This document shows, in pieces, positions 21,087-25,664 of a DNA stretch of 40,322 nucleotides. The notes below the pieces were generated by a model. The model made no database searches, had not been told where the DNA came from, and saw only the letters and a program-made list of their open reading frames with translations. The position numbers were made by a program, and so were the translations under genes. Numbering within the stretch: the stretch's first letter is position 1; the number at the start of each line of letters is the position of its first letter. The stretch is from Pelosinus propionicus DSM 13327 (GTDB lineage Bacteria; Bacillota; Negativicutes; DSM-13327), in contig NZ_FOTS01000045.1 of the NCBI RefSeq assembly GCF_900114615.1, positions 1-40,322 on the forward strand, written 5' to 3'.

Positions 21087-21118
21087 TCGTTAACCAACTA
21101 TTCATTTGTCGTTAACGT
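21087..21118 (+). promoter_or_regulatory. BirA-type operator candidate upstream of the bioB pair
   Basis: Two GTTAAC cores (21089-21094 and 21111-21116) in TCGTTAACC and CGTTAACGT are separated by 14-16 nt, as in the bipartite sites recognised by the BirA biotin repressor (TTGTTAACC...GGTTAACAA type). A TATAAA (21123-21128) follows directly, so the site overlaps the promoter. It suggests that the BioB-like genes are biotin-regulated. Confidence 0.6.
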
Positions 21119-21164: not shown

Positions 21165-22151
21165 ATGCACTATCGTGAAATCATTACTTTGGGAGAGTCA
21201 ATATTATTAGGACATCAAATTCAATATAAAGAAGCATTACAGCTCACTCATATACTGAATGAGGATATTCCTTTACTTTCCGCATTTGCTAATAAAATTC
21301 GTATCAAATTTACTGGCAGAAACGTTGACATGTGCGGCATTGTGAATGCCCGCTCAGGATTGTGCTCTGAGGACTGTAAATTTTGCGCCCAATCCGTTTA
21401 TCATGATACCAAGACTCCTATACATAACTTATTAGACATAGAGAAAATTACTGCAGCAGCACAACAAGCTCAGGAACAAGGGGCAAAACGGATTAGCATC
21501 GTCACCAGCGGCAAGGGTATGGACAGTGACCCTGACTTTCAAAAGATCATAGAGTCGATACAAGCAATTATGTATCATACCAGATTAAACGTTTGTGCTA
21601 ATCTTGGCACACTTACTCTAGAGCAGGCACGCATGCTGGCATCTTCCGGTGTCAAGCGCTATGCTCACAATTTAGAAACTAGCGAAAACTTCTATCCTTC
21701 AGTATGTACAACCCATTCTTATCGAGAGCACGTTGCTACTATTCAAGCGGCAAAATCTGCTGGTATGGAGCTTTGCACTGGAGGCATTATTGGCATGGGA
21801 GAAAGCTGGCAGGATCGCATTGATTTTGCATTTGCTTTAAAGAGTCTGGATGTTGCCTCTATTCCTATTAACATTCTCAATCCTATTAAAGGTACTGCTC
21901 TGGAAGATGTTACGCCCCCCTCTCCCCTGGATATTATTAAAACCTTTGCTATTTTTCGTTTTATATTTCCTAACAAAATCATCCGGCCTGCTGGTGGTCG
22001 GGAAATAAACTTGCGGGATATGCAGGGACACTTGATGCTGTCTGGAGCGAATGGTCTTATTATTGGCAATTACTTAACCTTTACAGGTCGTAATACAGTG
22101 ACAGATTTCCAGATGGTACAAGACGCAGGGTTAATTCCAGCGTTACTGTAA
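21165..22151 (+). CDS. Biotin-synthase-like radical SAM enzyme, paralogue 1 (one auxiliary-cluster Cys missing)
   Basis: This 328-aa BioB-family enzyme has radical-SAM cysteines Cys67, Cys71 and Cys74 (GLCSEDCKFCAQS) and the family blocks YAHNLETSENFY, GGIIGMGESWQDR and NILNPIKGT. Of the auxiliary-cluster ligands in E. coli BioB (Cys97, Cys128, Cys188, Arg260), the equivalents of Cys128 (Cys144, LNVCANLG), Cys188 (Cys204, MELCTGG) and Arg260 (IRPAGGRE) are kept. The Cys97 position is Ser111 (KRISIVTSG). The protein may therefore not perform standard sulfur insertion. AAGGAAG lies ~10 nt before ATG 21165. It is the first gene after a BirA-like operator and is followed by a second bioB. It could be a neofunctionalised BioB, a helper, or a decaying duplicate. 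Confidence 0.85.
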   Translation: MHYREIITLGESILLGHQIQYKEALQLTHILNEDIPLLSAFANKIRIKFTGRNVDMCGIVNARSGLCSEDCKFCAQSVYHDTKTPIHNLLDIEKITAAAQQAQEQGAKRISIVTSGKGMDSDPDFQKIIESIQAIMYHTRLNVCANLGTLTLEQARMLASSGVKRYAHNLETSENFYPSVCTTHSYREHVATIQAAKSAGMELCTGGIIGMGESWQDRIDFAFALKSLDVASIPINILNPIKGTALEDVTPPSPLDIIKTFAIFRFIFPNKIIRPAGGREINLRDMQGHLMLSGANGLIIGNYLTFTGRNTVTDFQMVQDAGLIPALL

Positions 22152-22162
22152 AAAATAAATGG

Positions 22163-22220
22163 CTCTCGTAAAAGCCTCATTTAGAATGGCAAAGGATGTT
22201 GTATGGCTATTTTCCGAGAG
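22163..22220 (+). other. Hairpin between the tandem bioB genes
   Basis: CTCTCG (22163-22168) pairs with CGAGAG (22215-22220), continued by AAAA/TTTT and GCC/GGC with one mismatch and a small bulge. It fills most of the 97-nt gap between the two bioB genes and ends about 15 nt before the AGGAGG of the second. It could be a processing site or attenuator; there is no T-run for termination. Confidence 0.45.
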
Positions 22221-22248
22221 TACACAACAACTACTAGGAGGAATGAAC

Positions 22249-23241
22249 ATGAACAACTATGATTTAATTTTTTCTCTAGGAAAAAAAATATTAGAAGGCA
22301 GTCAGCTTACCTTTGATGAGGCCTTGTCCTTAACAACCATTGAAGAAAGTGACATTCCCATATTACTTGGCGTTGCAAATAAAATCAGAGAAAAGTTTAC
22401 GGGATCTTATGTAGATACTTGTCAAATTCTAAATGCTCGTTCAGGAAATTGTACGGAAGACTGTAAATTTTGCGCCCAATCTGCCCATCATGATGTAGAA
22501 GTAGATGTATACCCACTCATGAATGAAAATGCGATTGTCCAGGCAGCCCAAAGAGCAGAGGCAGATTCTGCCTACCGTTTCTGTGTGATTACCTCAGGAT
22601 GCGGTATGGAAGGCGATCGAGATTTTGAAAAAATTACGGCAGCAATTGAGAAAATCGGTCAGGAAACAACTCTTGAGCGCTGCTGTTCCTTAGGAACCTT
22701 GCAAGAACAACATGTAGCCGCTCTCAAAAAGGCCGGCATTACACGTTATCATCATAATTTAGAAACCAGCGAAAGTCATTTTGGTGAAATTTGTACCACT
22801 CATACCTATAAAGAGCGTATAGATACAATTAAAAGAGTGAAAGCGGCTGACATTGAAGTGTGTTCTGGCGGTATCATTGGCATGGGTGAAACTTGGCGTC
22901 AGCGTATTGAATTGGCCTTTACATTAAAAGAATTAGATGTTGACTCTGTGCCCATTAATGTTTTGAATCCCATTAAAGGAACAGCCCTGGAAAACCAGGA
23001 AAAACTAAACCCAATGGAAATTTTGCAAACCTTTGCTATTTTTCGCATGATTCTGCCTACAAAAATTATTCGTTACGCTGGCGGTCGTGAACACAATCTT
23101 GGAGAATTAGTTCCTCTAGGATTCTTATCCGGCGTTAACGGCATGCTCATTGGTCATTATCTGACTACACAAGGACGAGGAGCTAGCAAAGATCTCCAAA
23201 CGGTAACAGATTTAGGGCTGAAACTACTAAAAAACGCTTAA
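22249..23241 (+). CDS. bioB: Biotin synthase
   Basis: This 330-aa radical-SAM enzyme is predicted to convert dethiobiotin to biotin. Radical-SAM cysteines are Cys68, Cys72 and Cys75 (GNCTEDCKFCAQS). The auxiliary-cluster positions are complete: Cys112 (YRFCVITSG), Cys145 (ERCCSLG), Cys205 (IEVCSGG) and the Arg of IRYAGGRE. Extra cysteines at 118 and 146 next to these ligands may point to the anaerobe-type BioB with a larger auxiliary cluster; I cannot prove that from sequence. I start at ATG 22249, because AGGAGG lies 7 nt upstream; the ATG at 22243 is too close to it, and the frame open to 22159 lacks a site. This copy looks like the functional biotin synthase of the pair. Confidence 0.9.
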   Translation: MNNYDLIFSLGKKILEGSQLTFDEALSLTTIEESDIPILLGVANKIREKFTGSYVDTCQILNARSGNCTEDCKFCAQSAHHDVEVDVYPLMNENAIVQAAQRAEADSAYRFCVITSGCGMEGDRDFEKITAAIEKIGQETTLERCCSLGTLQEQHVAALKKAGITRYHHNLETSESHFGEICTTHTYKERIDTIKRVKAADIEVCSGGIIGMGETWRQRIELAFTLKELDVDSVPINVLNPIKGTALENQEKLNPMEILQTFAIFRMILPTKIIRYAGGREHNLGELVPLGFLSGVNGMLIGHYLTTQGRGASKDLQTVTDLGLKLLKNA

Positions 23242-23260
23242 TAGTGACCGATTCTCAGCA

Positions 23261-23290
23261 TTGACGAATAATGATTTTACTTGATATAAT
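23261..23290 (+). promoter_or_regulatory. Promoter of the cobT-like gene pair
   Basis: TTGACG (23261-23266) and a perfect TATAAT (23285-23290) are 18 nt apart, 20 bp after the bioB stop. A small hairpin ATATAGC-GTT-GCTATAT follows (23305-23321) in the ~125-nt leader. I found no cobalamin riboswitch. Confidence 0.65.
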
Positions 23291-23421
23291 TGCAATGATT
23301 ATAAATATAGCGTTGCTATATATACAGCGCGAAAATCAACAGTCTTATGGCTTTTTTGGTATTCATTTCCGAAAAAGCTCTTTTTTCTGCATTAGTGGTG
23401 ACAAAGACAATGGAGGTTACA

Positions 23422-24471
23422 ATGAGTTTATTATTCGAAACATGTTCGCAGATTTTCCCTTTAGATCAAAAAGTTATGGAATCCGTTCAATCACGATTAG
23501 ACACATTAATTAAACCCCAAGACAGTCTTGGCCGTCTGGAAGAGATGGTAAAGCAATACGCTGGTATTCGAAAAGAAGAAGTTCCTACAGCGCCTCACAC
23601 ATGCATGGTTATCGCTTGTGCCGATCACGGTGTAGCACGCAACCAAATCAGTGCCTATCCCGTAGAAACGACACTGCAAATGACAAAAAATTATGTGGGT
23701 GCTAAAGGTGCCAGTGCTAATGCTTTTGCAAACTTCAGTGGTGCCGATATGGTCGTAGTGGATGCAGGTGTTGCTGCTGACCTATCTGATACGGAAGGAC
23801 TATGGCATCGTAAAATTGCCTATGGCACAAACGACTTTACACAAGGTCCAGCTATGACACGTGAAGAAGCTATTCAAGCCCTTGAGATTGGAATCGAAAT
23901 TGTGAATGAAAAAGTGCGTGCTGGATACAACTGTTTCAGTCTGGGTGAAATGGGTATCGGCAATACAACTTCCAGCGCAGCGATTGCAGCAACCTTTACC
24001 AATATTACTCCCGAGCAAGCTACAGGTCGCGGCACTGGCATTTCAGACAGCCGTCTTGCCTTTAAGATCGATATTGTACGCCAGGCACTTACTGTGAATC
24101 AGCCAAATCCTCAAGATGGACTGGATGTTCTGGCAAAAATCGGAGGTTTTGAAACAGGGGTTCTGGCAGGAGTTATACTAGGTGCTGCTGCAAATCGCTG
24201 CGCAGTTGTCATTGATGGTCTTAATACAACTGCCGCTGCGCTAATTGCCAACGCTCTTCACCCCATAGTCCCCCACTATCTTATGCCTTCTCATTTATCC
24301 GGTGAACCTGCACATCGTATTGCCCTAAAGCTTCTTGGACTGGAAGCATGCATTGATATGGGAATTCGGTTAGGAGAAGCAATTGGTGCGTCTATCGTCG
24401 TCGATATGCTGGGTGCTTCTATTAAAATGCTGGCTGGCATGACTCCCTATGAAGATTCTGCTGGTAAATAA
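23422..24471 (+). CDS. CobT-family phosphoribosyltransferase 1 (ArsA-like)
   Basis: This 349-aa enzyme belongs to the nicotinate-nucleotide:dimethylbenzimidazole phosphoribosyltransferase family, which activates the lower ligand of cobamides. It keeps the canonical motifs KPQDSLGRLEE, CADHGVA, TQGPAMTREEAI, GEMGIGNTTSSAA and, at the catalytic glutamate, RLGEAIGAS (usual form RLGEGTGA). I start at ATG 23422, where GGAGG lies 5 nt upstream; the frame opens at 23347. A second CobT homologue follows 35 nt downstream. Tandem CobT homologues are the hallmark of ArsAB in Sporomusa and Veillonella, a heterodimer that activates phenol or p-cresol. This copy is the more canonical of the two. Confidence 0.9.
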   Translation: MSLLFETCSQIFPLDQKVMESVQSRLDTLIKPQDSLGRLEEMVKQYAGIRKEEVPTAPHTCMVIACADHGVARNQISAYPVETTLQMTKNYVGAKGASANAFANFSGADMVVVDAGVAADLSDTEGLWHRKIAYGTNDFTQGPAMTREEAIQALEIGIEIVNEKVRAGYNCFSLGEMGIGNTTSSAAIAATFTNITPEQATGRGTGISDSRLAFKIDIVRQALTVNQPNPQDGLDVLAKIGGFETGVLAGVILGAAANRCAVVIDGLNTTAAALIANALHPIVPHYLMPSHLSGEPAHRIALKLLGLEACIDMGIRLGEAIGASIVVDMLGASIKMLAGMTPYEDSAGK

Positions 24472-24506
24472 GAAGCATAATTTGTTGATAACAGGAGGTT
24501 CCACTT

Positions 24507-25604
24507 ATGATGCAAGATACGATTTCCTTAATTAAACCACTTGATACAATCGCAATGGATAAATGCCAGATACGCCTAGATAATTTAACAAAACCTCTGA
24601 ACAGTTTATATTCCTTTGAACATCTGGCACGTCAGCTGTCCGGTATTACTTACAATCCCAGACCCCGCAGCCTAAAGAAAAGTATTATTATCATGGCAGC
24701 AGATCATGGCGTAGCAGCCGAAGAACCTTGCGTTTTTTCGAAACAAGAAGTAATTCTTCAAAAAATTCATAACATATCACGAGGCAGCGCCGCAGTCAAC
24801 ATTTTTGCTGATCATGTTGCTGCAGATTTAGTCCTTGTAGATATGGGCATTATAGCCAACATCCCCCCTCTCCCTTTAGTACGAAATGAAAAAATCGCCT
24901 CTGGAACGAAAAACATAACCCAAGGTCCTGCGATGACTCGGGAAGAAGCAATAAAAGCAATCGAGATTGGCATTCGAGTCGCTTCTGAAACGATTAAAAA
25001 AGGTTCTCAGGTCCTAGGATTAGGTGAAGTGGGAGTCGCCAATGCAATTTCCAGTACAGCGATCATTGCCTGCTACAGTCAACGTCCGCTGACTGAGTTG
25101 GTAGGAAAGACTGCAGATTCTTCCATCGATTTTTTAGATAAAAAGATTTCCTTCATCCGCCGCGCCATTACCGTGAATACTCCAAACATTGACGATCCTA
25201 TTGATGTTTTAAGTAAACTAGGTGGTTATGAAACTGCCGGACTGGTTGGAATTATACTAGGTGCAGCCTCAGGCGGAGCAGCCATTGTCTTAGATGGTCT
25301 TGCGACCAGCACTGCTGCCTTGCTTGCAGTGAAATTAGCTCCTCAAGTTAAAGACTATCTCATTGGTTCTCATTTTCCACCGGAACCTGCACATAAAGCC
25401 AGCCTTGACTTAATCGGCATTCCTGCCTACCTTCATCTCAACATCTCCTCAGGAGAAGGAGTCGGTGCTGCATTGGGACTGTCCTTACTCAATGCTTCAC
25501 TGCATGTTTTAAATGATATGAAAACTTTTGGCGAGGCAGAGGTCTCTGTCGCTCATGACGGACCGGGCGCCCTTAAACAAGATAAGAATGTAAAAGATGA
25601 ATAA
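24507..25604 (+). CDS. CobT-family phosphoribosyltransferase 2 (divergent, ArsB-like)
   Basis: This 365-aa CobT homologue differs from the neighbouring copy at several signature sites. KPxxSLGRLE becomes KPLNSLYSFEH, GEMGIGNTTSS becomes GEVGVANAISS, and CADHGVA becomes AADHGVA. The catalytic-glutamate loop is intact (SSGEGVGAALG) and TQGPAMTREEAI is conserved. This asymmetry fits a heterodimeric ArsAB-type enzyme in which the two chains have different duties. AGGAGG precedes ATG 24507 by 8 nt; a second ATG follows at once. The stop codon lies inside a 33-bp hairpin that ends the operon. Confidence 0.88.
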   Translation: MMQDTISLIKPLDTIAMDKCQIRLDNLTKPLNSLYSFEHLARQLSGITYNPRPRSLKKSIIIMAADHGVAAEEPCVFSKQEVILQKIHNISRGSAAVNIFADHVAADLVLVDMGIIANIPPLPLVRNEKIASGTKNITQGPAMTREEAIKAIEIGIRVASETIKKGSQVLGLGEVGVANAISSTAIIACYSQRPLTELVGKTADSSIDFLDKKISFIRRAITVNTPNIDDPIDVLSKLGGYETAGLVGIILGAASGGAAIVLDGLATSTAALLAVKLAPQVKDYLIGSHFPPEPAHKASLDLIGIPAYLHLNISSGEGVGAALGLSLLNASLHVLNDMKTFGEAEVSVAHDGPGALKQDKNVKDE

Positions 25605-25664
25605 ACAAAGTGATGGCAGCAGTTCATAAGAAACTGCTGCCATCACTTTGTTTATTCATCTTTT
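25592..25664 (+). terminator. Perfect 33-bp hairpin overlapping the end of the second cobT-like gene
   Basis: Arms 25592-25624 and 25632-25664 are perfectly complementary over 33 bp with a 7-nt loop. The left arm includes the last codons (KDE) and stop of the gene; the right arm ends in TTTT paired with AAAA of the left arm. It is a terminator by position, and long enough to be an RNase III substrate that protects or trims the 3' end. The following sequence to 25877 carries a CTCTGTGTTCTCTGCG tract similar to the CACAAAG-type repeats, but no gene. Confidence 0.85.

Follow-up and report, generated by a model that had tools for sequence, protein, structure and literature searches.

For the lipoyl proteins LipS1 and LipS2, PMC9585515 describes a division of labor by substrate, LipS2 being restricted to the octanoyl form and LipS1 to the 8-mercaptooctanoyl form. 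A type II biotin synthase of anaerobes is described in PMC11099021, and PMC6461909 reports tandem cobT genes in 27 species, almost entirely Negativicutes. Here, we analyzed a 40,322-nucleotide stretch of Pelosinus propionicus DSM 13327 (contig NZ_FOTS01000045.1, positions 1 to 40,322; hereafter the window), in which two BioB-family genes lie head to tail and are followed by two CobT-family genes, all on the plus strand (21165-25604), just as an original prediction made from the sequence alone had described. This Pelosinus locus is likely to consist of two separate vitamin modules side by side, a cobamide gene pair and a diverged biotin-synthase pair. The former, arsAB, is already known (PMC6461909); the lasting interest of the locus is the BioB1-BioB2 pair. 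The four genes are as follows.

21165-22151, plus strand: bioB1, a diverged BioB paralogue (N146, A167, P275, F306); 328 amino acids (aa); TIGR00433, 382.6 bits
22243-23241, plus strand: bioB2, a BioB paralogue (C111, C117, C145, V155, I272); 332 aa; TIGR00433, 411.0 bits
23422-24471, plus strand: arsA, CobT family; 489.2 bits to ArsA (4hdk_A), next match 213.2
24507-25604, plus strand: arsB, CobT family; 416.6 bits to ArsB (4hdk_B), next match 228.6

Both BioBs pass the curated TIGR00433 (BioB) cutoff of 225 bits and are the only genes in the whole genome to do so; they are therefore the sole candidates for its biotin synthase. The open frame of bioB2 begins at 22159, upstream of the called start at 22243. 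Among 380 genomes of the class, BioB1 is present in 30, set apart by a clear drop in score (from 555.6 to 469.0 bits), and it is followed by BioB2 in all of them (BioB1 without BioB2, 0/30). Beyond these 30, a further genome (G046; G, L, and C numbers are our labels for genomes, loci, and contigs) carries a BioB1 that a frameshift has broken. The pair is the only BioB at an E value of ≤1e-60 in 24 of the 30 genomes, of which 23 have bioD. A wider contig scan covered its best 80 loci: the 11 with at least 59% identity carry the pair (10 titled Negativicutes, one only “Bacillota”), and the BioB1 signature at residues 146, 167, and 306 is absent from the other 69 of these best 80, in a search that reached beyond Negativicutes. 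BioB1 forms one clade (SH-aLRT 100), as do the BioB2-type sequences (support of 96 in a quick tree and of 100/100 in a careful one). A literature search on paired or tandem BioBs gave nothing relevant among the papers listed, leaving aside PMC2964542 and PMC4554459, which carry the words BioB1 and BioB2. As a separate observation, one genus, g73, has BioB genes of another type in arrays of three (L040, L041, and L075 in G198, G201, and G240).

The two proteins depart from ordinary BioBs at different places (residue positions are in BioB1 numbering throughout). The radical S-adenosylmethionine (SAM) motif CxxxCxxC (67, 71, 74) and the auxiliary-cluster cysteines are present in both types, and cysteines 57, 67, 71, 74, 144, 181, and 204 are kept in 30/30 BioB1 and 34/34 BioB2 sequences; which of them are cluster ligands is our own assumption. 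BioB1 has N146, A167, and F306 fixed in 30/30. The corresponding residues in 87 comparison BioBs (20 operon-type and 67 wider, with a few organisms in both sets) are S146 in 87/87, H167 in 84/87, and T306 in 86/87, and in 35 other BioBs of the class, which include 15 left out of the operon-type set, S146 in 35/35, H167 in 34/35, and T306 in 27/35. Paired BioB2 has C111, V155, and I272 in 30/30 and mostly Cys117, while S or A stands at 111 in 76 of the 87 comparison BioBs (Cys in 4) and in 26 of the 35 class BioBs (Cys in one), and A at 155 in 76 and 23, respectively. The departures are complementary: BioB1 is usual at 111 and 155 but changed at 146, 167, and 306, and paired BioB2 is the reverse. 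The BioB1 model (mean pLDDT 85.6, with the minimum around residues 68-79) adopts the fold of a biotin synthase and is closest to 8vdw of V. parvula (TM score 0.91-0.92).

The original prediction had set BioB1 apart by its Ser111. This residue is not the odd one, and BioB1 is unusual elsewhere: Ser is the commonest residue at 111 in anaerobe BioBs, including the solved 8vdw and 8vcw (B. obeum). A lost ligand at Ser111 was ruled out on the same grounds, as both structures carry Ser. We take type II BioBs to be defined by Cys57 and not to need a Cys at 111, where type I enzymes have a ligand. Cys57 is present in both window BioBs; BioB1 resembles 8vdw and 8vcw in its Ser111, and BioB2 has Cys111 as well.

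Seven genomes have no intact BioB found other than one of the BioB2 type. In six of them, residue 111 is Ser, residue 155 is A or F, and residue 272 is T, S, or A; these six (G046, G051, G086, G058, G078, and G134, the last four forming one genus, g40) represent three lineages. G041 and G031, which have an operon-type BioB as well, keep C111, V155, and I272. Of the 161 sites conserved in 29 or more of the 30 paired BioB2 sequences, 5 differ in G046 and 16 in G051; the differences common to both are exactly 111, 155, and 272. The chance of at least three shared sites is 0.007 under uniform draws and 0.038 when weighted by variability, and the three-way overlap with genus g40 came up in 0 of 20,000 uniform draws (0.00055 weighted), for sites that had been noticed before being tested. 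In the tree, G051 falls inside a clade with G018 and G035, both of which have the pair (100/99); its branch is long (0.31 versus 0 and 0.033), and the placement of G046 is weak (90/68).

Because BioB1 always occurs with BioB2, because their fixed departures are complementary, and because 111, 155, and 272 change in parallel, we tentatively infer that the two BioBs may have become co-dependent. On this basis, BioB1-BioB2 could be, with chances that we put a little below even, a two-component biotin synthase whose members suffered complementary losses and act together, either as a heterodimer or on successive half-reactions, one per C-S bond (sulfur at C9, then at C6). Where BioB1 was lost and no other BioB was at hand, the BioB2 type would have regained independence through the changes at 111, 155, and 272.

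Several observations weigh against co-dependence or against a role of the pair in biotin synthesis alone. G027, an 87% complete metagenome-assembled genome (MAG), keeps C111, V155, and I272 with no other BioB found, and a Pelotomaculum MAG (locus L111), whose other BioBs lie outside the comparison, has a BioB2-like gene with Cys111. The BioB1 break in G046 is a single frameshift; if it were an assembly error, G046 would be a counterexample. Genus g40 is sister to the remaining BioB2-type sequences, so its Ser111 may be ancestral, and an independent-pairs test had two informative pairs (P = 0.5), a number with which it cannot reach significance. Other BioB types are not uniform at residue 306 (T in 27/35, as above), which makes it the weakest of the three BioB1 positions. 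Moreover, G094 (87% complete) has the pair but no bioD, and 6 of the 30 pair genomes hold another BioB too, in which case the pair may do more than, or something other than, biotin synthesis.

Two other accounts of the pair have to be set beside this one. The first, possible though somewhat doubtful, is that both are independently working biotin synthases, kept for dosage or for tuning to iron, sulfur, or oxygen, with the residue differences reflecting that tuning. Both proteins keep all cluster cysteines, another BioB type accompanies the pair in the six genomes just mentioned, and the BioB2 type is the sole BioB found in six genomes without any BioB1, suggesting that this type can probably work alone. 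However, such independence sits poorly with the absence of any BioB1 without BioB2, with the fixation of the departures at 146, 167, and 306, and with the changes at 111, 155, and 272 in six of the seven genomes with a lone intact BioB2-type gene. The second, which we consider unlikely, is that biotin is made by BioB2, and that BioB1, under biotin control, uses some substrate different from dethiobiotin, e.g., a biotin relative. Its appeal lies in the fixed departures at 146, 167, and 306: their E. coli equivalents are T130, N151, and T293, which lie at or near the substrate pocket. No paper giving the residue contacts of E. coli BioB was found in the literature search. A different substrate would not by itself explain why 111, 155, and 272 change upon loss of BioB1, and the compared loci show no additional conserved gene next to the pair.

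The association of the pair with biotin is further suggested by its upstream region, which the original prediction had overlooked.

21089-21116, no strand assigned: putative BirA-type biotin operator, GTTAAC-N16-GTTAAC; 1 in the window, 0 in 100 shuffles

The 3' end of this element lies 48 bp before the bioB1 start. A paired GTTAAC-type operator, like that of the biotin (BirA) regulon, appears to be present upstream. Similar boxes occur near the bioB1 start in 25 of the 30 pairs (19 in strict form), at a density of 3.73 per kb versus 0.02 elsewhere in the same loci. On the other side of the balance, the genome as a whole shows no enrichment of GTTAAC pairs (4 places with a looser pattern versus 11 for the reversed control). 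Two of these four places sit at bio genes, namely, the window and contig C63, where similar boxes precede a bioW-bioF-bioD-bioA operon with no bioB in it; an open reading frame (ORF) without a Pfam match lies before bioW. In G028, G025, and G011, a single bioB heads such an operon. Additional observations on bio genes include a small ORF, probably encoding a membrane protein, which many bio operons carry ahead of bioW (cluster c12, with L190:4030-4716 and its relatives); a BioY-like gene, recognized by eye, directly after bioB1-bioB2 on the same strand in L028 (G050), which fits a biotin role; and two bioD loci in Pelosinus G003 and G004 (L056, L057, and L191), with a bio operon that has its own bioB besides the BioB1-BioB2 pair and, in G003, a further bio operon without bioB.

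The second module is an ordinary arsA-arsB pair, judging from its sequence, and the original prediction had recognized it as such. Among solved structures, each gene is closest to its own subunit, the first to ArsA (4hdk_A) and the second to ArsB (4hdk_B). The structure 4hdk is ArsAB of Sporomusa ovata, in line with the reference list of PMC6461909. The first gene passes TIGR03160 (380.3 versus a cutoff of 319.3); the second falls just under it (315.3) and passes NF000996 (318.5; cutoff, 306). The control elements of the module are listed below.

23261-23290, plus strand: arsAB promoter, TTGACG-N18-TATAAT; kept in 8/8 Pelosinus genomes
23349-23386, plus strand: arsA leader element, a terminator-like hairpin with a T run and a possible attenuator; similar element in 7/8 Pelosinus leaders by eye
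25592-25664, no strand assigned: terminator hairpin after arsB, with perfect 33-bp arms (25592-25624 and 25632-25664) and a 7-nucleotide loop

As a consensus match, the promoter that had been proposed for the cobT pair does not stand out (13 promoter-like sites versus 13.3 expected), but all eight Pelosinus genomes conserve it. The closing 33-bp hairpin is likewise real, and it overlaps the arsB stop codon. The leaders of the eight Pelosinus loci gave no known riboswitch at gathering score; at a permissive E value, the arsA leader gave one chance-level snoRNA match only (E = 4.1), and its fold is no better than that of shuffles (z = -1.15). We note that this leader (23291-23421), without a cobalamin riboswitch but with the terminator-like hairpin kept, possibly holds a remnant expression platform or another attenuator. 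A third CobT of the genome is on contig C72, where its neighbors are cobS and a histidine phosphatase and there is an upstream cobalamin riboswitch. In several Negativicutes, ArsA and ArsB are apparently fused in one open frame of ~640 to 715 aa (e.g., L093:4535-6679 in G046 and L094:4773-6779 in G013), both halves being matched in G046, G013, G066, G050, G102, and G024.

The original prediction had joined the two modules, proposing that BioB1 together with ArsAB may make or modify a cobamide-related molecule. The pair does adjoin arsAB in 8/8 Pelosinus genomes, and by our own count an arsAB-like pair or fusion occurs somewhere in the genome in 30/30 genomes with BioB1. The count covers 48 genomes, a nonrandom set chosen mostly for several BioBs, and takes as arsAB-like either adjacent matches or a frame of >600 aa (G017 and G034 by frame length alone). 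Such co-occurrence is uninformative, since arsAB-like genes are also present in 16 of the 18 compared genomes without BioB1; the two exceptions are G002, with no CobT, and G031, with two CobT genes 0.8 kb apart that were not counted. The original prediction would have been refuted by a paralogue found mainly without arsAB pairs, and on this point the outcome is mixed: no BioB1 genome lacks arsAB-like genes, but the pair is not adjacent to them in 22 of 30. No link across genera emerges: adjacency is confined to the eight Pelosinus genomes, and no CobT lies in the fetched stretch (about 10 to 11.5 kb) at the 22 other intact-pair loci or at that of G046. Conversely, S. ovata (G126), outside the Pelosinus family, has arsAB with one BioB only, of the operon type. 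Among 20 arsAB loci of other genera (L077-L095 and L189), 12, with that of S. ovata among them, carry a cobalamin riboswitch of their own immediately before arsA. A cobamide role for BioB1 is thus unsupported and highly improbable; we rejected it because of the biotin-type operator before bioB1 (with similar boxes at the bio operon that lacks bioB), the separate arsAB promoter, the confinement of adjacency to Pelosinus, and the absence of the pair from S. ovata.

Our best explanation, and probably the correct one, is that two independent transcription units were joined in Pelosinus, the bioB pair for biotin and arsAB for cobamides. The first, bioB1-bioB2, would be regulated through its BirA-type operator and would supply the last step of biotin synthesis to the bioW-bioF-bioD-bioA operon. 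The second, arsA-arsB, with its own conserved promoter and terminator, would activate phenolic bases for cobamides like S. ovata ArsAB, as its best matches suggest. Two misreadings are thereby corrected: BioBs of anaerobes commonly carry Ser at the Cys97 position, and an arsAB neighborhood does not make a BioB a cobamide enzyme. If the BioB pair is indeed co-dependent, the two C-S bond steps of biotin formation would be split between proteins, as they are in LipS1/LipS2 for lipoyl, and the half-reactions and the role of the extra BioB2 cysteines would become separable for study.

Compared with known systems, the arsAB module resembles that of S. ovata in its tandem arrangement, each gene matching its own solved subunit best, but the cobalamin riboswitch upstream of S. 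ovata arsA is absent from the eight Pelosinus loci. The type II BioBs 8vdw and 8vcw have in common with the window pair the fold, the extra Cys57, and all cluster cysteines. Unlike them, the window BioBs form a tandem pair in which BioB1 departs at 146, 167, and 306 and paired BioB2 has Cys111, mostly Cys117, V155, and I272. LipS1/LipS2 (PMC9585515) are two BioB-like radical SAM proteins that share a two-step sulfur insertion, and they offer a model for the BioB pair. In contrast to them, BioB1 and BioB2 score under the NCBIfam cutoffs of both families (LipS2, 47.0 and 52.8 against 270; LipS1, 25.6 and 35.6 against 230), and their context is that of biotin.

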